Shown here: piece by piece, positions 49,725-59,657 of the stretch | How the letters are laid out: every line of letters starts with the position of its first letter | Numbering within the stretch: the first letter of the stretch is position 1 | Source of the DNA: Nostocoides sp. Soil756 | Lineage (GTDB): Bacteria; Actinomycetota; Actinomycetes; Actinomycetales; Dermatophilaceae | Assembly (NCBI RefSeq): GCF_001428065.1 | Contig: NZ_LMSE01000002.1 | Location: 1,270,120-1,334,119, forward strand | Direction of reading: 5' to 3' | Length of the DNA: 64,000 nt | Notes under the pieces: generated by a model | What the model saw: only the letters and a program-made list of their open reading frames with translations | What the model was told of the DNA's origin: nothing | Database searches by the model: none | Translations under genes and position numbers: made by a program

Positions 49725-51593
49725 TCAGGCGAGGCGCTCGCGCAGCCGGGTCGCGACGGCGTCGGGGGTGAGCTCGACCGCGTCGAGCACCTGCCCCCGC
49801 GAGGCGTGCTCGAGGAAGCGCTTGGGCAGCCCGAAGACGTCGACGGGCTGGTCGAGCCCGGCGTCACGCAACGCCTGGGTCACCTGCGAGCCGATGCCGC
49901 CGACCACGACGTTGTCCTCGACCACGGCGACCCGGCCGGCCGCCCGGGCCAGCGTGACGACCTCGTCGGGCACCGGCAGCGCCCACACCGGGTCGACGAC
50001 ACGGACGCGGTGCCCCTCGGCGGCCAGCTTCTCGGCGGCGGTCAGTGCGGTGGCCGCCATCGAGCCGACCCCGACCAGCAGGACGTCGACGGCGTCGGCA
50101 TCGGGCTCGGCGAGCACGTCGACCCCGCCGACGGTGCGCACGGCCTCGATGGGCTCGGCGACGGTGCCCTTGGGGAAGCGGACGACCGAGGGAGCGTCAT
50201 CGATGGCGACGGCGGCACGCACCGCCCGCGCCACCTGCTGGCCGTCGCGCGGCGCGGCCAGGTGCAGCCCGGGCACGACCCCGCTGATGGTCATGTCCCA
50301 CATGCCGTGGTGCGACGCGCCGTCAGGGCCGGTGACCCCGGAGCGGTCGAGCACGACGGTGACGCCCGCCCGGTGCAGTGCGCAGTCCATGAGCAGCTGG
50401 TCGAAGGCCCGGTTGAGGAAGGTGGCGTAGACCGCGACCACCGGGTGCAGGCCCGAGAACGCCAGGCCGGCGGCCATCGTCATCGCGTGCTGTTCGGCGA
50501 TGCCGACGTCGAAGGTGCGCTCGGGGAAGCGGTCGCAGAACGGCTGGAGCCCGACCGGCATCATCATCGCGGCGGTGATGGCGACGACGTCGCGGCGCTC
50601 CTCGCCGAGCTCGACCATGGTGTCGGCGAACTCGTCGGTCCAGCTGCGCCCGGCGATCTCGAGCGGCAGGCCGGTCTCGGGGTTGATGACCCCGACGGCA
50701 TGGAACTGGTCGGCCTCGTCGGTGATGGCCGGGTCGTAGCCGCGGCCCTTCTGGGTGATGACGTGCACCAGCACCGGGCCGCCGAAAGCGCGCGCCTTGC
50801 GCAGCGCGGCCTCGAGGGCGGGCTCGTCGTGGCCGTCGACCGGGCCGATGTACTTCAGCCCGAGGTCCTCGAACATCCCCTGCGGGGCGACGATGTCCTT
50901 GATGCCCTTCTTGACCCCGTGCAGCGTCTCGTACATGGCGCCGCCGACGACGGGCGTGCGCGAGACGTTGCGCTTGCCCCAGTCGAGGAAGCGCTCGTAG
51001 CCGCGGGTGGTGCGCAAGGTGGCGAGGTGGTCGGCCAGGCCCCCGCGGGTGGGGGCGTAGGAACGCTCGTTGTCGTTGACCACGAGCACCAGCGGCAGGT
51101 CGTCCTCGGCGGCGATGTTGTTGATGGCCTCCCACGCCATCCCGCCGGTGAGGGCACCGTCGCCGATGACCGCGACGGTGTGCCGGTTGCGTTCGCCGCG
51201 CACGACCCGGCCGGCGGCGATGCCGTGGGCCCAGGACAGGGACGTGGAGGCGTGCGAGTTCTCGACGACGTCGTGGGGCGACTCGGCGCGGCTGGGGTAG
51301 CCCGACATCCCGCCCTGCTTGCGCAGCGCCGAGAAGTCGCGGCGGCCGGTGAGGAGCTTGTGCACGTAGGACTGGTGGCCGGTGTCGAAGACCACGGTGT
51401 CGGTGGGGCTGTCGAAGACCCGGTGCAGGGCGATGGTGAGCTCGACGACGCCGAGGTTGGGCCCGAGGTGGCCTCCGGTGCGGGAGACCTGGTCGACCAG
51501 GAAGGCACGGATCTCGTCGGCGAGGGCGGGCAGCTGCGCCGCCGGGAGGGCCTTGAGGTCGCGGGGACCTTCGATCCGTTCCAGCAGGCTCAC
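49725..51593 (-). CDS. dxs: 1-Deoxy-D-xylulose-5-phosphate synthase
   Basis: 622 aa from ATG 51593. Thiamine-diphosphate enzyme: [60 protein letters not shown] (GDG-type TPP/Mg motif), [18 protein letters not shown]-type segment ([20 protein letters not shown]), [20 protein letters not shown] and the transketolase C domain. Condenses pyruvate and glyceraldehyde-3-phosphate, first step of the MEP isoprenoid pathway. Complete, usual length. Followed by a methyltransferase gene on the same strand. Confidence 0.97.
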
Positions 51594-51790
51594 CGCGGCC
51601 TACCTCCTCGTTCTCGGGTCCGGTCGAACCCCACGAGTCTAGGTGCTCGGCCCGGGTGCACCCGCAGGGACGAAGGTGCCCTCCACCACGTCCTCACCGG
51701 ATGCCCACGCCGCCGCTACCCGGCGGCCCCGGTGGTGGGACGCCCCGCACCGAGCCCGCCCGCCCCTAGGCTGGCGCGCGAGGAGGCGGT

Positions 51791-52663
51791 GTGCGGGTCG
51801 GGACGACGCCGGTGGCGGCGGGGCGGAGGCACTCGGTCGGTCTGCGGGCCGACGGGACGGTGCTGGTCGCCGGGGCCGTCGCGGCCGGTGAGGGACGGGT
51901 CGGCGGATGGTCGGGGGTCACCGCGGTGGCGGCCGGGGACGTGCACGTGGCCGCCAACACCGGTCGCTCCCACACGGTCGGGCTGCGCTCCGGCGGAACG
52001 GTGCTCGCCACCGGGTGGGACGGCGACGGCCAGTGCGACGTCGCCGGCTGGCACGACGTGGTGGCCGTGGCGGCGGGCTGGCGGCGGACCCTCGGGCTGC
52101 GGTCCGACGGCACCGTCGTGGCGGCCGGCCGCGCGGCGGAGGGGGCCTGCGACGTCGGTGCCTGGCGGGAGGTGGTGGCGGTGGCGTGCGGCGACTGGCA
52201 CTCGGTGGCGGTGCTGGCCGACGGGACGGCCCGGGCCGTCGGTGTCGACCGCCGCGGCCAGGGCCGGGTCGCGGGCTGGCGCGGCCTGCGCGACGTCGCC
52301 GCCGGCTCCGTGCACACCGTCGGGCTGCGCGCCGACGGCACCGTCCTGGCCACCGGCCCGCGGCGCCCGGGGCCGGCGGCCGTCGCGGATGCCTGCGCGG
52401 TCGGCGGATGGCGCGAGGTGGTGGCCGTGGCCGCCGGCAGCCACCACACCGTGGGGCTGACGGCCGCCGGGCGGGTGCTGGCGGTGGGTGACGACACCCA
52501 CGGCCAGTGCGCGGTGGCGGGATGGCGCGACGTCGTGGCGGTCGCGGCCGGCGCCACCCACACCCTCGGGGTGCGCGCCGACGGCACCGTGCTCGCGGCC
52601 GGGGGCGACGGCCACGGCCAGGCCGACGTGGGGTCGTGGCGCGACCTCCGGGTGGCCGGCTGA
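51791..52663 (+). CDS. RCC1-repeat beta-propeller protein
   Basis: 290 aa from GTG 51791. Made almost entirely of RCC1/BLIP-II-like repeats of about 38-42 residues: each has HTVGLRADGTVLATG, a Gly-rich turn (GDGQCDVAGW) and DVVAVAAG. At least seven repeats are visible (for example HSVGLRADGTVLVAG, RTLGLRSDGTVVAAG, HTLGVRADGTVLAAG), enough for one closed propeller. There is no signal peptide, so it is probably cytosolic. The family binds proteins; BLIP-II inhibits beta-lactamases. The high repeat identity at DNA level makes it prone to expansion. It ends 11 bp before the left repeat of the 52.7-57.4 kb island. Confidence 0.85.
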   Translation: MRVGTTPVAAGRRHSVGLRADGTVLVAGAVAAGEGRVGGWSGVTAVAAGDVHVAANTGRSHTVGLRSGGTVLATGWDGDGQCDVAGWHDVVAVAAGWRRTLGLRSDGTVVAAGRAAEGACDVGAWREVVAVACGDWHSVAVLADGTARAVGVDRRGQGRVAGWRGLRDVAAGSVHTVGLRADGTVLATGPRRPGPAAVADACAVGGWREVVAVAAGSHHTVGLTAAGRVLAVGDDTHGQCAVAGWRDVVAVAAGATHTLGVRADGTVLAAGGDGHGQADVGSWRDLRVAG

Positions 52664-52673
52664 CCCGGCCGGC

Positions 52674-52767
52674 CCCTCAGAGCCGCGGCACGAACTCCAG
52701 CCCGCGCAGGGCGTCGAGCAGCAACCCGGCCGCGCGGCGAGCCGCCACGAGGCGCACGCCCTCGCAC
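52674..52767 (-). repeat. Left direct repeat of the 4.6-kb island
   Basis: Encodes, on the minus strand, the last 29 codons plus stop of the SOS-box gene (ending LLLDALRGLEFVPRL). Protein sequence identical to the right copy, DNA differing at four synonymous positions. Confidence 0.85.
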
Positions 52768-52813
52768 GTCGCGCCGGAGAGCGAGGGTTGCCACGTCGAG
52801 ATTCTCCTAGCAT

Positions 52814-53407
52814 GTGGGCGTGACCTATGACGCGCTCGCCGAGAGCGTCCGGTTGATCCAGTGCGAGCACCTGGAGCCCGTGGTGCGCCTGAGCCGGCGG
52901 CGTCGGTTCGCTGCGATGGCCGTCGACGTCGCGGGCGACGTAGCGGTCACCCGGTTCGCCAGACGAGGGGTGGGTTGCGTCCTGTCCGAGACCTGGGTCC
53001 TGGCCAGGCGGCGCACGAGCTGGCATCTGCTCGGCGGCGGCAGTGACTCTGCTGACGATGACCTGCTCACCCCTCGCCCCGCCCGGCTACCGGGCCACCT
53101 CGGTCTGCCCTGGGCCAAGGGTTCCGGCATTGATCCCGGGCTGGTCCTCATCGAGGACAGCGGCGGAGTCCATGACAGTCGGGGCAGGTCGGACCCGTGT
53201 CCGTGGAGCGGTCGCTGGATACGCCACGTCGGCCTGCGGACCAGCGCCGACGTCGAGTCCGTCACCGTCGATGACCGGACGGTCCGGGTGCCTTGGCATG
53301 GCCGGGTCGTCCTCGTCTCGAGCGGACGTCGATCACCACGAGTGGTCGTCAATGGCGAGCGAGGCGCTGTTCTCGGCGAGATCCACCCCTTCGAGGGCGC
53401 CAGGTGA
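52814..53407 (+). CDS. Hypothetical protein inside the island
   Basis: 197 aa from GTG 52814 (GTG 52820 equally possible). Begins VTYDALAESVRLIQCEHLEP, then a basic stretch (RLSRRRRFAAMAVDVAG) and a beta-rich second half with DVESVTVDDRTVRVPWHGRV and RSPRVVVNGERGAVLGEIHP. No signal peptide or membrane helix and no family recognised. Coding composition is good, and the start is 47 bp from the island's left repeat. Confidence 0.65.
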   Translation: MGVTYDALAESVRLIQCEHLEPVVRLSRRRRFAAMAVDVAGDVAVTRFARRGVGCVLSETWVLARRRTSWHLLGGGSDSADDDLLTPRPARLPGHLGLPWAKGSGIDPGLVLIEDSGGVHDSRGRSDPCPWSGRWIRHVGLRTSADVESVTVDDRTVRVPWHGRVVLVSSGRRSPRVVVNGERGAVLGEIHPFEGAR

Positions 53408-53492
53408 ACGCGCTGCCACCGTGAGAGAACCCAGCGCCGACACCGACATGAGCGGACGCTCCCCTGCGTCATTCGCGGCCGACAGGGCTACG

Positions 53493-53660
53493 TCAGGCGG
53501 GGCGTTCGCGGTCGAGTCGTTCGAGGATCCAGGAGCGGACGAGGGTTGAGGCGGGGAGGGGCGTGGTGGCGGCGACGCGCTGGACTGCGGCTTTTCTTCT
53601 GCGCTGAGGCGCACGGAGTACAGCTTCTTCCGGTTCGGTCTTGGTCCGGTGATGCCGGCG
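53493..53660 (-). pseudogene. Frameshifted antitoxin-like gene
   Basis: KKLYSVRLSAEEK reads in one frame and continues as AAVQRVAATTPLPASTLVRS, WILERLDRERPA, stop 53493, in another; the break is in the A-rich run opposite 53590-53600. Together they look like the end of a ribbon-helix-helix-type antitoxin. No clear start codon remains, and the nucleotidyltransferase gene starts on the other strand upstream. Confidence 0.5.
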
Positions 53661-53695
53661 AGTAGCTCTGCGGTGGGCAGGACTCCACCGACACC

Positions 53696-54043
53696 GTGCA
53701 GTTCGGCCCGTACGCTGGTTGCACGAGGACCGCGACCAGGCAGAGCGAGTCGTTGCGTGCAGCGATCGCCAGTCATCGTCGCGCGCTCGAGGAGATCCTT
53801 GGTCGGTACGGAGCGACGAACGCTCGCCTGTTCGGTTCTGTTGCCCGCGGCGACGCCACGCCGGAGAGCGACATTGACCTGCTGGTCGATCTGACACCTG
53901 GTGGCGGCAACGAACTCCTGCGCGTGTCCGGCATTGCCGAGGAACTGACCGAGCTCCTCCGGAACCGGGTCGATGTCGTAGCGAGCTCGCTGCTGCGTGA
54001 TGAGGTCTCCGCCAGCGCCCTTGCCGACGCGGTGGCGGTGTGA
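53696..54043 (+). CDS. mntA: MNT-type nucleotidyltransferase (MntA-like antitoxin)
   Basis: 115 aa if started at GTG 53696; a TTG near 53752 (SLRAAIASHRRALEEILGRY) would give the more usual length of about 96. The minimal nucleotidyltransferase signature is intact: ARLFGSVARGDATPESDIDL with GS-x10-DxD. MntA antitoxins AMPylate the HepT RNase toxin encoded just downstream, and here a HepT start overlaps by 4 bp. Because that HepT is broken, the antitoxin is now an orphan. Confidence 0.8.
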   Translation: MQFGPYAGCTRTATRQSESLRAAIASHRRALEEILGRYGATNARLFGSVARGDATPESDIDLLVDLTPGGGNELLRVSGIAEELTELLRNRVDVVASSLLRDEVSASALADAVAV

Positions 54044-54179
54044 GCCGCTCCGAGGACGAGCGGTTCGCCGACGTCCTGGGCGCCATCGAGCGCTGTCTGG
54101 ACTACGCGCCGCACCTGCATTCCGGGACATCGTGGATCATCAGCTCACCGACTTGGCCACCGCCATACGCAACCGCTGA
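54040..54179 (+). pseudogene. HepT toxin remnant, internally deleted
   Basis: Starts correctly as SRSEDERFADVLGAIERCLD, YAPHL, overlapping the mntA-like stop (GTGA), then jumps with a frame change to the HepT C terminus FRDIVDHQLTDLATAIRNR, stop 54179. About 50-60 residues, including the RNase Rx4-6H region, are missing. The toxin cannot be functional. Confidence 0.75.
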
Positions 54180-54457
54180 CACCGGCAGCGTCATGTGGTG
54201 CCGGAGCAGGGTCGACTGGCGGCGGACGGACGCATCTCGGCGCTTGGTCAGGTCTTGCGAGCCGGCCGAACTCAGTTGAGAGCCCCGCATAGTGGTGCAG
54301 CGTGATCGCTGGGTTCGTCGCTGTCACGTGTGTCGGTGGTGGACGGGGTGCGGCCACCGCGTGATCCTTCTCGTGAACCCTCACCAGCGCTGCGCACCCT
54401 GGCCCGGCAGGGGGCACGCGTACGTTCGGCACCAGTCCCGATCAAAGGAGATCCACG

Positions 54458-55714
54458 ATGGCCCAGGTCGAACCGCGGCTCACGTCCCCCGATTCGGTGG
54501 GGATGAGCGCCGACCGCCTCGAGCTCATCGCGCCCGCGCTGCAGAAGTACGTCGACCAGGGCGGCTACGCCGGCTTCACGACGTTGGTGTCGCGCCGCGG
54601 TCGGCTCGTCCACTCCGAGTGCCTCGGTTGGCAGGACCGCGAGGCCGGCGTGCCCGTGGCGGAGGACACGATCTACCGCCTCTACTCGATGACCAAGCCG
54701 ATCATCTGCACCGCCCTGATGACCCTGTTCGAAGAGGGGAAGTTCCAGCTCGTCGACCCGGTCGCCAAGTGGATCCCGGCCTTCGCGGCGACGAAGATCG
54801 CCGGCCCGGACGGGACGCTCGAGGACCAGTCGCTGCTACGCCCGATGCAGGTCCGCGACCTGATGAGCCACACCAGTGGGCTCACCTACGACTTCCTCGA
54901 GGACTTCCCGGTCGCGGAGCAATACCGCCAGAAGCGGATCGGCAACGACCCGACGCGTACCCTCGAGCAGTTCGTCGACGAGGTCGCCACGCTTCCGCTG
55001 GCCTTCGCGCCCGGGACACGTTGGCACTACAGCGTGGGCATCGACGTCGCAGCCCGTCTGATCGAGGTGATCTCGGGCCAGAAGCTCGGGGAGTTCCTCT
55101 CGGAGCGCCTGTTCGGGCCGCTCGGTATGACGGACACGGGTTTCGGCGTGCCGGAGTCGGAGCGTGGCCGTCTTGCCGCCATGTACGGCCTCCCGGACAT
55201 CGTCGGCCAGGACATGACGTTCACCAAGCTCGCGATCGCCTTCGCCACCGGCGACCTCGGCCGCCGGGACGTGGACGCGACGTACCCGAGCGACACCCCG
55301 GACGTCTTCCAGCGCGGTGGCCACGGCCTGTTCGGCACCGGTCCGGACTACCTGCGGTTCGCGAACATGCTGCTCACGGGCAAGGCCGAGGACGGCACCC
55401 GCATCCTCGGCCGCAAGACGCTCGAGCTGATGCACACGAACCACCTCGCGCCGACGCTGCTGCCGTACACCCTCGGCGGCGTTGCAGCGCCCGGGTACGG
55501 GTTCGGCCTCGGCTCCCGCGTCGCCATGGACATCGGCCAGACCGCACTGGCGGGCTCTGTCGGCGAGTTCGGCTGGTCCGGTGCGGCCAAGACCTACTTC
55601 TGGGTCGATCCGGTGGAGGAGATCGTCGGGGTGCTCATGACGCAGCACATGGTCGGCTTCGACCTGCCCGAGGCCGACTTCCGCGCGGTCGTCTACCAAG
55701 CCATCGAGGACTGA
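54458..55714 (+). CDS. Beta-lactamase-fold serine hydrolase (class C/EstB-like)
   Basis: 418 aa from ATG 54458 with AAAGGAG 8 bp upstream. Beta-lactamase (PF00144) domain: nucleophile motif S77-M-T-K80 in YRLYSMTKPII, Y191-S-V in TRWHYSVGIDV replacing the usual YxN, VRDLMSHTSGLTYDF, EFLSERLFGPLGMTDTGFG, and HGLFGTGPDYLRFANML. No signal peptide, so cytosolic; this and the YSV motif favour an esterase or transesterase (EstB/LovD group) over an antibiotic resistance enzyme. It is flanked by two HepT remnants, suggesting the gene was placed inside a toxin-antitoxin region. Confidence 0.88.
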   Translation: MAQVEPRLTSPDSVGMSADRLELIAPALQKYVDQGGYAGFTTLVSRRGRLVHSECLGWQDREAGVPVAEDTIYRLYSMTKPIICTALMTLFEEGKFQLVDPVAKWIPAFAATKIAGPDGTLEDQSLLRPMQVRDLMSHTSGLTYDFLEDFPVAEQYRQKRIGNDPTRTLEQFVDEVATLPLAFAPGTRWHYSVGIDVAARLIEVISGQKLGEFLSERLFGPLGMTDTGFGVPESERGRLAAMYGLPDIVGQDMTFTKLAIAFATGDLGRRDVDATYPSDTPDVFQRGGHGLFGTGPDYLRFANMLLTGKAEDGTRILGRKTLELMHTNHLAPTLLPYTLGGVAAPGYGFGLGSRVAMDIGQTALAGSVGEFGWSGAAKTYFWVDPVEEIVGVLMTQHMVGFDLPEADFRAVVYQAIED

Positions 55715-56007
55715 CGCCCTGGCCGGCAGTCGGTTCGCCGAGGTGCGTGGCGACGGACTCGTGACGTCGGGAGGCCCCCGCCCCGGTGGCTGCTGCCCGG
55801 GCACCATTGCCGACGGGGCCACGTCGGCCGAGCATGCACCTCCGAAAGTGCGGTCCCCGGCAGTGACTCCCTGACCCAAGCGGACGAGGTCGGCGCACGT
55901 CCGCGGCGCCGCTAGCTTACGGTGCAGACCAGTCCGAGGGTCCTCGCTCAGCTGGTGACCCACCGTATGTCGACGACGCTTGAAGACTGGATGGTCGCGA
56001 CGCCCGA

Positions 56008-56153
56008 GATTGCATGTCTGAGGTTCCGTGGGCATCCATCGCCGTCTACGCAACGTCGTCGTGCACGCGTACTTCCGCCTGAAACCAGACGTGATCCGCG
56101 ACATCGTCGGCCACGAGCCGGCGGACCTGGCTCACGCAATCCACAACCGCTGA
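56008..56153 (+). pseudogene. Second HepT/DUF86 remnant (C-terminal part)
   Basis: DCMSEVPWASIA (frame 1) followed after a one-base shift by HRRLRNVVVHAYFRLKPDVI, RDIVGHEPADLAHAIHNR, stop 56153. The E-x-PW, RNxxVHxY and C-terminal DIV...L..AI patterns are those of DUF86/HepT, and the RNVVVHAY part is the Rx4-6H catalytic motif missing from the first remnant. No N-terminal half is found upstream. The 293-bp gap before it (55715-56007) holds nothing else I can support. Confidence 0.7.
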
Positions 56154-56498
56154 GCCCAGCCGCCTGGCTCTCGTCCATCCGAGCCGACTCCGCGCCTGAG
56201 CGCGGGGATGCACTCTCACGCAAGAACAGCCGCGTCGCGGCGGAGTGCTGCACGTCCGGCCGGCGACCGTCTGGCGGCGAAGTGGGGCAGTCCGTCGCGA
56301 GGGTCCATAGCGGTGCTCGTGTCGACGGCCCTGTGTCACGCTCATCCCATGAGATCGGGGCGGTCGGGCTTCTGCGGCGGTTGGGAGACTCCCGTTACTG
56401 CATTCTGGCTGAGCCCCGATCGGGCATTCGGGTCCCCGCCGCGGAGGATGCTGGCGTCCCGCGACCCCCGCATCGCGCCGTCATCAGGCGGCCGAGGG
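56154..56498. other. 345-bp gap, no supported gene
   Basis: Between the second HepT remnant and vapC. Short frames on both strands lack ribosome sites and family patterns. Probably decayed sequence. Confidence 0.45.
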
Positions 56499-56900
56499 CT
56501 AGGTCCGCTCCGTCCGCGTACTGGTCACGAGGACCGTGGCGAGGTGGCCGGACGTTGCGAGCTTGGCGTCGCAGGTGACCAGCGGGATCTGGAGGGCCTC
56601 GGCGAGCGCCAGGTAGGCCGCGTCGTAGCTGGTGAACTGATGCCGCAACGTCCAGATCCGCTCCGCGAGAGGTGACGCCTCGTGCCGGCTGAGCGTGAAG
56701 GAGAAGTAGTCATCACGAGCCTGCTCTGCCATGGTCGGGGTCAGCTTCCTCCCGCGTTCCAGCCCGCGCAGGACCGAGAGCACTTCGATGTCGAGCAGGT
56801 GTGGTGCGGCGAGGTCGCCGCCGAGCAGGTCCAGGAGGTGGGAATCGACATCTGTTCCGACCAGGGCCTCGACCATGGCCGAGGCGTCGACGACGATCAT
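56499..56900 (-). CDS. vapC: VapC-family PIN-domain RNase toxin
   Basis: 133 aa from ATG 56900, overlapping vapB by 4 bp. Four acidic PIN residues are visible: Asp5 (MIVVDASAMVE), Glu39 (LLDIEVLSVL), Asp93 (TSYDAAYLALAEAL) and Asp111 (LVTCDAKLA). Length matches VapC. It should cleave RNA (often tRNA or rRNA) when not bound by VapB. Intact and probably the functional stabiliser of this island. Confidence 0.92.
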   Translation of the reverse strand: MIVVDASAMVEALVGTDVDSHLLDLLGGDLAAPHLLDIEVLSVLRGLERGRKLTPTMAEQARDDYFSFTLSRHEASPLAERIWTLRHQFTSYDAAYLALAEALQIPLVTCDAKLATSGHLATVLVTSTRTERT

Positions 56901-57124
56901 CGGCGTTCAGCCGCGACCGCCTCGAGGACCTCTTGTGCGGTGGGGCCGGCGGTACGGTCCCGCTGACGCAACCGGGCCGTGATCTGGTCGTTGGTCGGGC
57001 GCAAGGCGATCTTGGTCAGCTCCTTGGCGACGTACGCGGACAACGAGGTGCCCTCCTGGGCCGCGCGTTGCTTCAGGATGCGCGCCACATCGTCGGAGAC
57101 ATCCCGGATGTAGAGAGTGCTCAT
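56897..57124 (-). CDS. vapB: VapB/FitA-type ribbon-helix-helix antitoxin
   Basis: 75 aa from ATG 57124. RHH DNA-binding N terminus: STLYIRDVSDDVARILKQRA, AQEGTSLSAYVAKELTKIAL; C-terminal toxin-binding tail TAGPTAQEVLEAVAAERR. FitA/StbC-like family. The promoter should lie in the 190-bp gap to 57314; a TGCTAGCA-type element (57131 region, GCATGCTAGC on one strand) could be part of the operator. Confidence 0.9.
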   Translation of the reverse strand: MSTLYIRDVSDDVARILKQRAAQEGTSLSAYVAKELTKIALRPTNDQITARLRQRDRTAGPTAQEVLEAVAAERR

Positions 57125-57311
57125 GCCGTCATGCTAGCATTGTGCAAGCACCGCGGCCGATGGCGAACCATCCGCATGGTGCCTGCGATTGGGTGCGAAC
57201 GAGGGGTAGCCCTGTCCGAACGATGCGACGCGGCCTCGAGGCCTGTCGCACCTCTGCTCCAGGTCCGGACGGTCTGGTCGAGTGCCCTCGGTGGTCGAAC
57301 AGGGACACCCT

Positions 57312-57405
57312 CCCTCAGAGTCGGGGGACGAACTCGAGCCCGCGCAGGGCGTCGAGCAGCAACCCGGCCGCGCGGCGAGCCGCCACGAGGCGCACGCCCT
57401 CGCAC
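57312..57405 (-). repeat. Right direct repeat of the 4.6-kb island
   Basis: Native 3' end of the SOS-box gene; partner of 52674-52767. 69 bp identical (57337-57405), remaining 25 bp with four mismatches. Confidence 0.85.
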
Positions 57406-57773
57406 TCGAGGTCGGCCAACACCTGGGTGACACCCTCGGGCCCGATGTCGTCGACCAACGCCACCCGCACCTCACGGTAGGACGAGCGCATCGCCTCGAG
57501 CTGGGCGTCGAGGTGGTTCACCGCCAGCCAGGCCAGGGCCACCGGATGCCGGCGCCAGGACGGGTAGAGCCGGTAGTCGGGTGGGCAGTGGTCGAGCAGC
57601 CACGCCACCGCCCGGTGCTGCCAGCCCCGCTCGCCCGGCGGCGGCACGCCCTGCGGCCACCCCGGGGGCCCGCCCGCTCCGGTGGCCCCGGCCCCCGACC
57701 GCTGCCGGACCGGGGCCGCCGGGGTGGGGGCGCGCAGGGGCGGCTCGCCGGCCGCTCCCGCATCATCGAACAT
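57315..57773 (-). CDS. Conserved Micrococcales-type protein with LexA box at its start
   Basis: 152 aa from ATG 57773. N-terminal 50 residues are Pro/Gly/Ala-rich and disordered; the conserved part is RAVAWLLDHCPPDYRLYPSW, RRHPVALAWLAVNHLDAQLE, ALVDDIGPEGVTQVLADLEC, and LLDALRGLEFVPRL. The helical LRGLEFVPRL end resembles similar actinobacterial proteins I know only as uncharacterised. Its start codon is inside a perfect LexA-box palindrome, so it is probably induced by DNA damage. Its 3' end is the apparent target of the island inserted to the left. Confidence 0.75.
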   Translation of the reverse strand: MFDDAGAAGEPPLRAPTPAAPVRQRSGAGATGAGGPPGWPQGVPPPGERGWQHRAVAWLLDHCPPDYRLYPSWRRHPVALAWLAVNHLDAQLEAMRSSYREVRVALVDDIGPEGVTQVLADLECEGVRLVAARRAAGLLLDALRGLEFVPRL

Positions 57774-57785
57774 GTGTTCGATGAT
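57762..57785. promoter_or_regulatory. LexA (SOS) box overlapping a start codon
   Basis: TCGAAC-ATGT-GTTCGA (57766-57781) within a 24-bp perfect palindrome (ATCATCGAACA and complement, 2-bp spacer). This matches the actinobacterial LexA consensus TCGAAC-N4-GTTCGA. The ATG of the minus-strand gene is 57773-57771, inside the box, so the transcript is either leaderless or starts within the operator. Confidence 0.85.
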
Positions 57786-57950
57786 AGGCCCTCGGCGGGG
57801 ATGCCGTCAGCCGTGCAGCGATCACGCGAGGACGGCCGGACCCCCTTCGCCCGACGCCGTTCCACCTACTGGACCGCCGCGACTGAAATAACCGTGCGTT
57901 ATACATTGCATGACGCAACGTAACTCTTTCCGAGCCCTGAGGAACCCCCG

Positions 57951-59657
57951 ATGACGATGACCGACTCCACGACGCGAGCCCTGCGGCCCCCGCGCGCCGG
58001 CCGGTCCAACGGTCAGTGGGCCGTCGACGGCACCGCCCCCCTCAACGCCAACGAGGAGTGGAAGCAGGAGGAGGGCGGCCTCTCCGTCCGCGCCCGCATC
58101 GAGCAGGTGTACTCCAAGGAAGGTTTCGGATCCATCCCGCCCCAGGACCTCAGCGGCCGGTTCCGCTGGTGGGGCCTGTACACCCAGCGCCGGCCCGGCA
58201 TCGACGGCGGCCGCACCGCCCAGCTCGACGACACCGAGCTCGCCGACGAGTACTTCATGCTGCGGGCGCGCATCGACGGGGGTGCCCTGACCCTGGAGCA
58301 GCTGCGCGTCCTGGCGCAGATCTCCACCGAGTTCGCGCGCGGCACCGCCGACATCAGCGACCGCCAGAACCTGCAGTACCACTGGATCCGCATCGAGGAC
58401 GTGCCCGAGATCTGGCGTCGCCTGGAGGCCGTCGGCCTCCAGACCACCGAGGCCTGCGGCGACACCCCGCGGGTGGTCATGGGCAGCCCGCTCGCCGGCA
58501 TCGCCGCCGACGAGATCGTCGACCCCACCCCCGTCGTCGACGAGATCGTCGAGCGGTTCATCGGTGACCCCGAGCTGGCGAACCTCCCCCGCAAGTTCAA
58601 GACGGCCGTCACCGGCCACCCCAGCCTCGACGTCGTGCACGAGATCAACGACGTCTCCCTGGTCGGTGTCGTGCACCCGACGCTCGGGCCCGGCTACGAC
58701 CTGTGGGTCGGCGGTGGTCTCTCGACCGCCCCGCGCCTCGCCGAGCGGCTGGGCACCTTCGTCCCCGAGGAGCACGCGGCCGAGGTCTGGCACGGGGTCG
58801 TGCGCATCTTCCGCGACTACGGCTACCGGCGGCTGCGCGCCAAGGCCCGCCTGAAGTTCCTCCTCGCCGAGTGGGGCCCGGCCGAGTTCCGGCGGGTGCT
58901 CGAGGAGGAGTACCTGGGCTTCGCCCTGCCCGACGGACCGGCCCCGGCCCGCGCCACCACCCCGGGCGACCACGTCGGCGTGCACCTCCAGAAGGACGGC
59001 AACCACTACGTCGGCGCCGCACCGACCGTGGGGCGCGTCAGCGGTGAGCTGCTCGCCGGCCTGGCCGACCTGATGGAGACCGCGGGCAGTGGTCGCGTGC
59101 GCTTCACACCGCATCAGAAGCTGGTCGTTCTCGACGTCGCGCCCGACCGGCTCGACGCGCTGGTCAGCGGCCTCGAGACCCTGGGGCTCTCCGTCTCCCC
59201 CAGCCCGTTCCGGCGCAACACCATCGCCTGCACCGGGATCGAGTTCTGCAAGCTCGCCATCGTCGAGACCAAGGCGGCCGCGGCCACCGCCATCACCGAG
59301 CTCGAGCAGCGGCTCGCCGACGTCACACCGGCGCTGGACACCCCGATCAGCCTGCACGTCAACGGCTGCCCCAACTCGTGCGCCCGCGTCCAGGTCGCCG
59401 ACATCGGGCTCAAGGGCCAGCTGCTCACCGTCGACGGCGAGCAGGTGCCCGGCTTCCAGGTCCACCTCGGCGGCGGCCTCGCCTCCCCCGAGCGCGACGA
59501 GGCCGGCCTCGGGCGCACCGTGCGCGGGCTCAAGGTCACCGCCGACGAGCTGCCCGACCTCGTCGAACGCCTCGTGCGCCGCTTCCTCGACCAGCGTGAG
59601 GGCGGCGAGAGCTTCTCGGCCTGGGCCCACCGTGCCGACGAGGACGAGCTGCGATGA
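57951..59657 (+). CDS. sir: Ferredoxin-dependent assimilatory sulfite (nitrite) reductase
   Basis: 568 aa from ATG 57951. Two ferrodoxin-like/nitrite reductase repeats: GRFRWWGLYTQRRPGIDGGR, FARGTADISDRQNLQYHWIR (siroheme-binding Arg region) and the [4Fe-4S]-siroheme cysteines in ACTGIEFCKLAIVET and HVNGCPNSCARVQVADIG. Reduces sulfite to sulfide (or nitrite to ammonia). The cysH gene overlapping by 4 bp makes sulfite the likely substrate. AT-richer upstream DNA (57885-57925) contains TTGC-ATGAC-GCAA, a possible operator. Confidence 0.93.
   Translation: MTMTDSTTRALRPPRAGRSNGQWAVDGTAPLNANEEWKQEEGGLSVRARIEQVYSKEGFGSIPPQDLSGRFRWWGLYTQRRPGIDGGRTAQLDDTELADEYFMLRARIDGGALTLEQLRVLAQISTEFARGTADISDRQNLQYHWIRIEDVPEIWRRLEAVGLQTTEACGDTPRVVMGSPLAGIAADEIVDPTPVVDEIVERFIGDPELANLPRKFKTAVTGHPSLDVVHEINDVSLVGVVHPTLGPGYDLWVGGGLSTAPRLAERLGTFVPEEHAAEVWHGVVRIFRDYGYRRLRAKARLKFLLAEWGPAEFRRVLEEEYLGFALPDGPAPARATTPGDHVGVHLQKDGNHYVGAAPTVGRVSGELLAGLADLMETAGSGRVRFTPHQKLVVLDVAPDRLDALVSGLETLGLSVSPSPFRRNTIACTGIEFCKLAIVETKAAAATAITELEQRLADVTPALDTPISLHVNGCPNSCARVQVADIGLKGQLLTVDGEQVPGFQVHLGGGLASPERDEAGLGRTVRGLKVTADELPDLVERLVRRFLDQREGGESFSAWAHRADEDELR

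Follow-up and report, generated by a model that had tools for sequence, protein, structure and literature searches.

PafBC is an activator of the response to DNA damage that acts independently of LexA. For M. tuberculosis, the available text of PMC8151990 gives the PafBC motif as TGTCGG, TGTCAG or TGTCAC-N10-TANNNT and describes a dual control of recA exerted via two promoters; dual control by LexA and PafBC is likewise known for recA, uvrA and uvrC (PMC8223512, available portion). In the LexA/RecA SOS regulon of actinomycetes, as studied in M. tuberculosis and S. venezuelae, the LexA box of 16 bp lies at the promoter, and in S. venezuelae boxes of the TCGAAC type are located at −14 to −200 of start codons, in a work where the gene family considered here was not recognised in the accessible text, supplements aside (PMC9380542). 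The lexA gene of M. tuberculosis is leaderless, its translation and transcription starts having been found by experiment to coincide (PMC2897130, available portion).

The gene under study lies in a window of 64,000 nucleotides (the whole stretch of DNA analysed) from Nostocoides sp. Soil756, and carries the same 16-bp box at its promoter as the members of the SOS regulon, from which it differs in that the box overlaps the start codon and in that none of the ten putative Streptomyces orthologues, so assigned by guess, is boxed. It also resembles the RecA-independent PafBC (RecA-NDp) regulon, since orthologues in other lineages carry TGTCRS-N10-NANNNT at a presumably leaderless promoter, whereas the gene in the window is devoid of this motif and LexA would hold the same promoter place. 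Furthermore, two orthologues have both signals on one −10, unlike the two promoters of M. tuberculosis recA, and the coincidence of starts established for M. tuberculosis lexA is, for the window's gene, suggested by spacing and conservation. In the open-access literature, subscription papers and supplements aside, we recognised no paper dealing with this family or with a swap between LexA and PafBC at one promoter.

A LexA box across a probably leaderless start

Features of the gene and its surroundings (positions in the window)
Feature	Position	Strand	Remarks
Gene of a family without Pfam or NCBIfam model	57315..57773	minus	152 aa; start codon within the box
Conserved core	57318..57671	minus	118 residues, gap-free, helical model
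LexA (SOS) box	57766..57781	.	12/12 to TCGAAC-N4-GTTCGA; invariant in 12/12 same-genus genomes
−10 hexamer TATCAT	57781..57786	minus	ends on the box's first minus-strand base; ATG follows after 7 nt
Gene's 3′ end, right copy of a 94-bp direct repeat	57312..57405	minus	
Other copy of the gene's 3′ end, detached from it	52674..52767	minus	96% identical; absent from G006
dxs	49725..51593	minus	usual downstream neighbour in many lineages; here 5.7 kb away

A pattern scan of the window found TCGAACATGTGTTCGA with 0 mismatches against TCGAACNNNNGTTCGA, in agreement with the original prediction, which had described a perfect actinobacterial SOS box over the ATG at 57773. The box forms the centre of a palindrome of 24 bp (57762-57785) whose pairs are symmetrical in 11 of 12 cases, and the minus-strand ATG (57773-57771) coincides with box letters 9-11. 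Read on the minus strand, the order is TATCAT-CGAACAC-ATG, which leaves no room for a leader after the −10, so that the gene is most likely leaderless; the −10 hexamer 6-7 nt ahead of the start that is expected of leaderless genes is present here (TATCAT, 7 nt, ATG) and likewise in the relatives. The ATG at 57773 is the sole start codon that retains the whole conserved core, with the next in-frame start 42 codons deeper inside the gene and no further start codon upstream in that frame. The operator would thus most likely span the −10 edge, the transcription start and the start codon in a leaderless layout, and its predicted position, overlapping the −10 edge and the start codon, is as such suited to a promoter block. 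The recA boxes of relatives also have GTG, ATG or CTG at letters 9-11, indicating that an NTG at this place is partly intrinsic to LexA sites and that the overlap of box and start is less odd than it seems.

A chance origin of the gene's box was rejected on the counts in the window, in the genome and in control tiles. With up to 2 mismatches to the box pattern, the window contains 5 matches against 2.2 expected, so that its weak matches mean nothing, while the box of the gene is perfect. The genome (3.47 Mb) holds 3 perfect matches, and 25 places with at most 1 mismatch; the pattern in reverse, used as a control, gives 5. Of the other two perfect boxes, one precedes lexA, and recA is preceded by a box of 11/12, so the box of the gene fits the consensus of its own genome, as expected for a member of the LexA regulon (gene 12/12; lexA 12/12; recA 11/12). 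The third perfect box (genome G000, C2:1372671-1372686; L032) is located about 110 nt upstream of a gene for an aminoacyl-tRNA editing domain. Genome G000 also contains one identical 11/12 LexA box in five copies (C1:415398, C2:965742, C2:1442936, C4:136856 and C6:415), two of which (L241 and L244) lie beside ORFs with a common stretch; Pfam gave no match for these ORFs, which presumably resemble 13E12-repeat proteins.

The box, its layout and conservation, the translation of the N-terminus and the PafBC-type motif of the relatives are visible at the level of the sequence, and from them we infer LexA binding, induction and a leaderless transcript for the window's gene. With considerable confidence, we regard it as a LexA-repressed, leaderless gene of the DNA-damage response. 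In the undamaged cell, a LexA dimer on the box would lie over the final −10 base and over both the transcription start and the start codon, and would keep RNA polymerase from initiating; upon DNA damage, activated RecA would lead to the self-cleavage of LexA and the strong TATCAT promoter would fire, giving a transcript that begins at or adjoining the ATG. The proposal that LexA blocks both transcription and the coding start may thus be kept in the form of a leaderless promoter under the operator, which makes it unnecessary to postulate a block of translation as well.

A small, putatively helical protein family

In agreement with the description of the gene product as uncharacterised, no model of Pfam, NCBIfam, PADLOC or PHROGs reached its cut-off for the protein, and identity with a known family was rejected, the sub-threshold Pfam matches being scattered and none above cut-off. 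Among 58 relatives, 36 carry an orthologue, a count that includes the window's own genome, and so do 152 in a sample of 394 genomes from the class. The core has 17 invariant positions among 68 sequences, with W, D, C, R and H represented among the invariant residues, and one locus (L024) has a stop codon within the family match. In the 24 codons that precede the core, the 12 same-genus genomes have 5, 6 and 24 variable columns at codon positions 1, 2 and 3, respectively, a pattern that identifies the stretch between the ATG and the core as real protein.

The core is modelled as helical with a mean pLDDT of 95. Five weak matches were obtained against the sequences of solved structures (best E 0.056), and Foldseek comparison of the core model with PDB and BFVD gave no match at E ≤ 0.001; VIA-align of the same model gave Z values of at most 7.5, ordinary for helical hairpins, and a new fold is therefore not claimed. 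The search of a phage collection gave no match to the protein, on which ground a phage origin was rejected. A plasmid collection gave four partial matches, two in Nonomuraea and two in Embleya; three of these loci were fetched, of which L246 (Nonomuraea gerenzanensis) has an 11/12 box and L247 and L248 have 10/12. The product is a small, probably soluble helical protein of an actinomycete family. As a tentative guess, prompted by the small size and the helical model, it may act by contact as an adaptor or inhibitor during damage rather than as an enzyme, with dxs co-induced where the gene lies just upstream of it. The gene had been put forward as a candidate new SOS effector; its candidacy for the SOS regulon stands on strong comparative evidence, but the effector role found neither a domain nor a fold match on which to build.

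LexA boxes and PafBC-type motifs at orthologous promoters

Upstream regions were collected from 30 of the 36 matching genomes, from the best 80 of 165 relatives and from 110 matches of the class sample (the first 30, then 60 in listing order plus 20 picked by hand, including the ten f37 loci), these sets overlapping one another. After regions identical in their last 60 nt, shorter than 150 nt or containing Ns were dropped, the 220 loci were reduced to 192 distinct upstream regions, among which near-identical species still occur, and 11,989 tiles taken from the same loci served as controls. A LexA box of at least 11/12 is present in 76 of the 192 regions, compared with 2 of 11,989 control tiles. 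By grade, 55 regions are at 12/12, 21 at 11/12 and 14 at 10/12, this last group being weak since 10/12 is frequent by chance (127 of 11,989 tiles). Within the genus, the box and the −10 hexamer are found in all 12 genomes, the window's own included, and the majority letter is carried by 11.6 of the 12 genomes in the box and by 11.3 in the −10, against 7.3 in the upstream and 8.2 in the downstream flank. Conservation of the box before orthologues, suggested earlier as a check, is therefore complete in the genus and partial beyond it. In the class sample, a box of at least 10/12 occurs in 23 of 23 loci of f35 and 16 of 16 of f45, and in none of the 10 loci of f37; by guess, these groups are Streptosporangiaceae-like, Nocardioides-like and Streptomyces-like, respectively.

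The layout described for the window recurs mainly among its closer relatives. Of the 90 boxed regions, 42 have a TANNNT that ends on the first base of the box, among them those from each of the 12 same-genus genomes, and 40 of these 42 derive from genomes of the window's family or from named loci of the relatives set; in 35 of the 42 boxed regions with RTG and an adjoining TANNNT, an in-frame start codon lies inside the box. LexA-type promoters of the window's family have good −10 hexamers (TATCAT, TAGAAT), and outside this family the box is mostly placed differently relative to the start. In six loci of a Pedococcus-type clade (L061, L068, L079, L086, L094 and L127), the box and the −10 are retained and the ATG of the box is out of frame with the core; the short upstream reading frame that this ATG begins terminates ahead of the core, whose own start must consequently be an internal codon.

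A second signal occupies the same place in other orthologues. The relaxed motif TGTCRS-N10-NANNNT was found in 28 of the 192 upstream regions (24 of the 28 unboxed) against 77 of 11,989 tiles, and the published TGTCxx variants in 25 of 192 against 38 of 11,989. Arsenicicoccus and Kineosphaera are among the genera with a PafBC-type motif. That these matches are chance or ordinary promoter sequence, and that only gain and loss of LexA control took place, is in our judgement unlikely, although several features speak in its favour: the motif is short, the −10s of PafBC-type regions are mostly poor (CACACT, CAGACT) with the first base relaxed in 23 of 28 and TANNNT in 5 of 28, and a published variant together with the full TANNNT occurs in only 3 of 192 regions (3 of 11,989 tiles). 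Nevertheless, the enrichment over the tiles is about 23-fold for the relaxed motif and 41-fold for the published variants, and an in-frame start lies at a fixed 6-7 nt behind the hexamer in 27 of the 28 regions, any ATG or GTG at this distance being present in 4 of the 77 control matches. Moreover, in the recA genes that served as a control of the motif, 26 of 26 genomes of both kinds carry TGTCRG-N10-TANNNT upstream together with a LexA-like site (9/12 to 11/12). In the window's genome, two WYL genes adjoin each other next to two genes of the Pup-ligase family, the layout expected of pafBC, and the 220-nt upstream region of the window's gene (L001) contains no PafBC motif.

The distribution of both labels was also followed on a tree of the family (192 rows and 117 columns), which is poorly resolved and on which changes were counted irrespective of their direction. 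Parsimony requires at least 12 changes for the LexA label and 22 for the PafBC label, or 15 and 18, respectively, when the loci with both signals are set apart; counted by the better supported branches, at least 5 and at least 6 changes are needed. The 18 changes of the PafBC label are not far below the mean of 23 obtained after shuffling, a point in favour of an accidental motif, but none of 500 label shuffles was as low as 18. Both signals share one −10 in L074 (Nostocoides jenkinsii) and L105 (Ornithinimicrobium), and likewise on one −10 in two Janibacter loci (L089 and L100), but there with TGTCGC, which is not among the three published variants, so that up to four of the 192 promoters carry dual signals. 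A further 78 of the 192 regions have neither signal, and their promoter has lost both or never had them. The 17 loci where aconitase ends at most 120 nt upstream of the core all belong to this group, a part of which may therefore be read from the aconitase promoter.

A good −10 under an operator and a poor −10 with an upstream motif have the look of a repressor-held and an activator-dependent promoter, respectively, and PafBC would bind at the orthologous promoters of the second kind. The preferred reading is then that control of one leaderless promoter has apparently changed hands several times between a repressor and an activator, both responsive to the same stress, the family being kept under damage control by a LexA box in many orthologues and by a PafBC motif at the same leaderless promoter in others. 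In its widest form, to which we give about even chances, the family would be a core component of the damage response whose promoter passed between LexA and PafBC via dual intermediates (Nostocoides, Ornithinimicrobium and perhaps Janibacter), the damage signal in many lineages also reaching dxs, which encodes the enzyme at the entry to isoprenoid synthesis.

Genomic neighbours and the variable 3′ side

A search for a conserved functional partner was not successful, as only dxs and aconitase recur beside the gene. Among 162 loci, 58 have a co-oriented aconitase gene upstream, as far as the flank compared reaches; one further aconitase match, in L138, is not upstream. A co-oriented dxs whose start is no more than 200 nt away occurs in 80 of 188 loci, and by type in 15 of 24 PafBC-type and 22 of 85 LexA-type loci. 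These counts could point to a role of the protein in isoprenoid metabolism or in the control of Dxs, with damage induction raising or tuning Dxs under stress; nevertheless, most LexA-type loci, the window included, lack a nearby dxs, and the listed neighbour clusters of f35 and f45 (flanks of about 1.5 kb) show no recurrent dxs, which makes such a role doubtful. Within the genus, the gap between the gene and dxs measures about 0.15 kb at the shortest and 5.7 kb at the longest, and the ORFs that it contains differ in two relatives.

The possibility that the box serves the divergent sulfite/nitrite-reductase-like gene (57951-59657, plus strand), its overlap with the minus-strand start being incidental, was considered because the box lies between the two divergent genes and the same reductase-like neighbour is present in 10 of 13 other loci compared in detail. 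However, the box is 170 nt away from the ATG of that gene, yet fixed to the −10 and start codon of the other, and it persists where the reductase-like neighbour was not found (L120) as well as in f35 and f45, whose listed neighbour clusters include no recurrent gene of this type. This explanation is accordingly very improbable, and the box is better assigned to the minus-strand gene.

On the opposite side, a direct repeat of the gene's 3′ end (94 bp, 96%) marks both ends of a 4.6-kb segment. The ORFs examined in it correspond to two unknowns, a nucleotidyltransferase, a beta-lactamase-fold protein, an antitoxin and a PIN toxin, and no recombinase was recognised among them. The toxin-antitoxin-like pair (56499-57124), composed of a PIN-domain toxin and a FitA-like ribbon-helix-helix antitoxin, adjoins the 3′ end of the gene, and the nucleotidyltransferase (NTP_transf_2; 53696-54279) matches the PADLOC candidate defence models PDC-S09; after it comes a 79-aa frame for which Pfam gave no match. 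An RCC1-like repeat protein (51701-52663; label given by eye) occupies the space from dxs to the detached copy and has no counterpart in the G006 region compared. The G006 protein is 99% identical to that of the window, and this genome is without the RCC1-like stretch and the detached copy but retains some of the segment, from which it appears that the repeats do not act as simple attL/attR ends; G008 contains a second, shorter partial 3′ end. The 3′ end had also been proposed as an insertion target linking SOS induction with excision of an element, of which the duplication is real and the link with excision weak: that the 3′ end is an attachment site and that SOS induction of the gene drives the excision of 52674-57405 would agree with the direct repeat, the partial 3′ end in G008 and the varying cargo between the gene and dxs in the genus, but it is hardly credible given the lack of a recognised recombinase among the ORFs examined, the part of the segment kept in G006 without the detached copy, and the gene's own lack of resemblance to a recombinase. 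The data support a variable spot between the gene and dxs, and not an excision linked to SOS.

In summary, the gene is very probably part of the damage response, and as a candidate new SOS gene it is well supported, by comparative sequence data, as to its regulation. Actinomycete damage regulons hold many genes of unassigned role, and the 118-residue core now offers a well-bounded family for assay. Control of one gene by damage via LexA in some lineages and via the unrelated PafBC in others would be more telling than one box on its own, since it would imply selection for damage induction itself, and the genera named above are those where the re-wiring of one promoter from LexA to PafBC would be directly testable.
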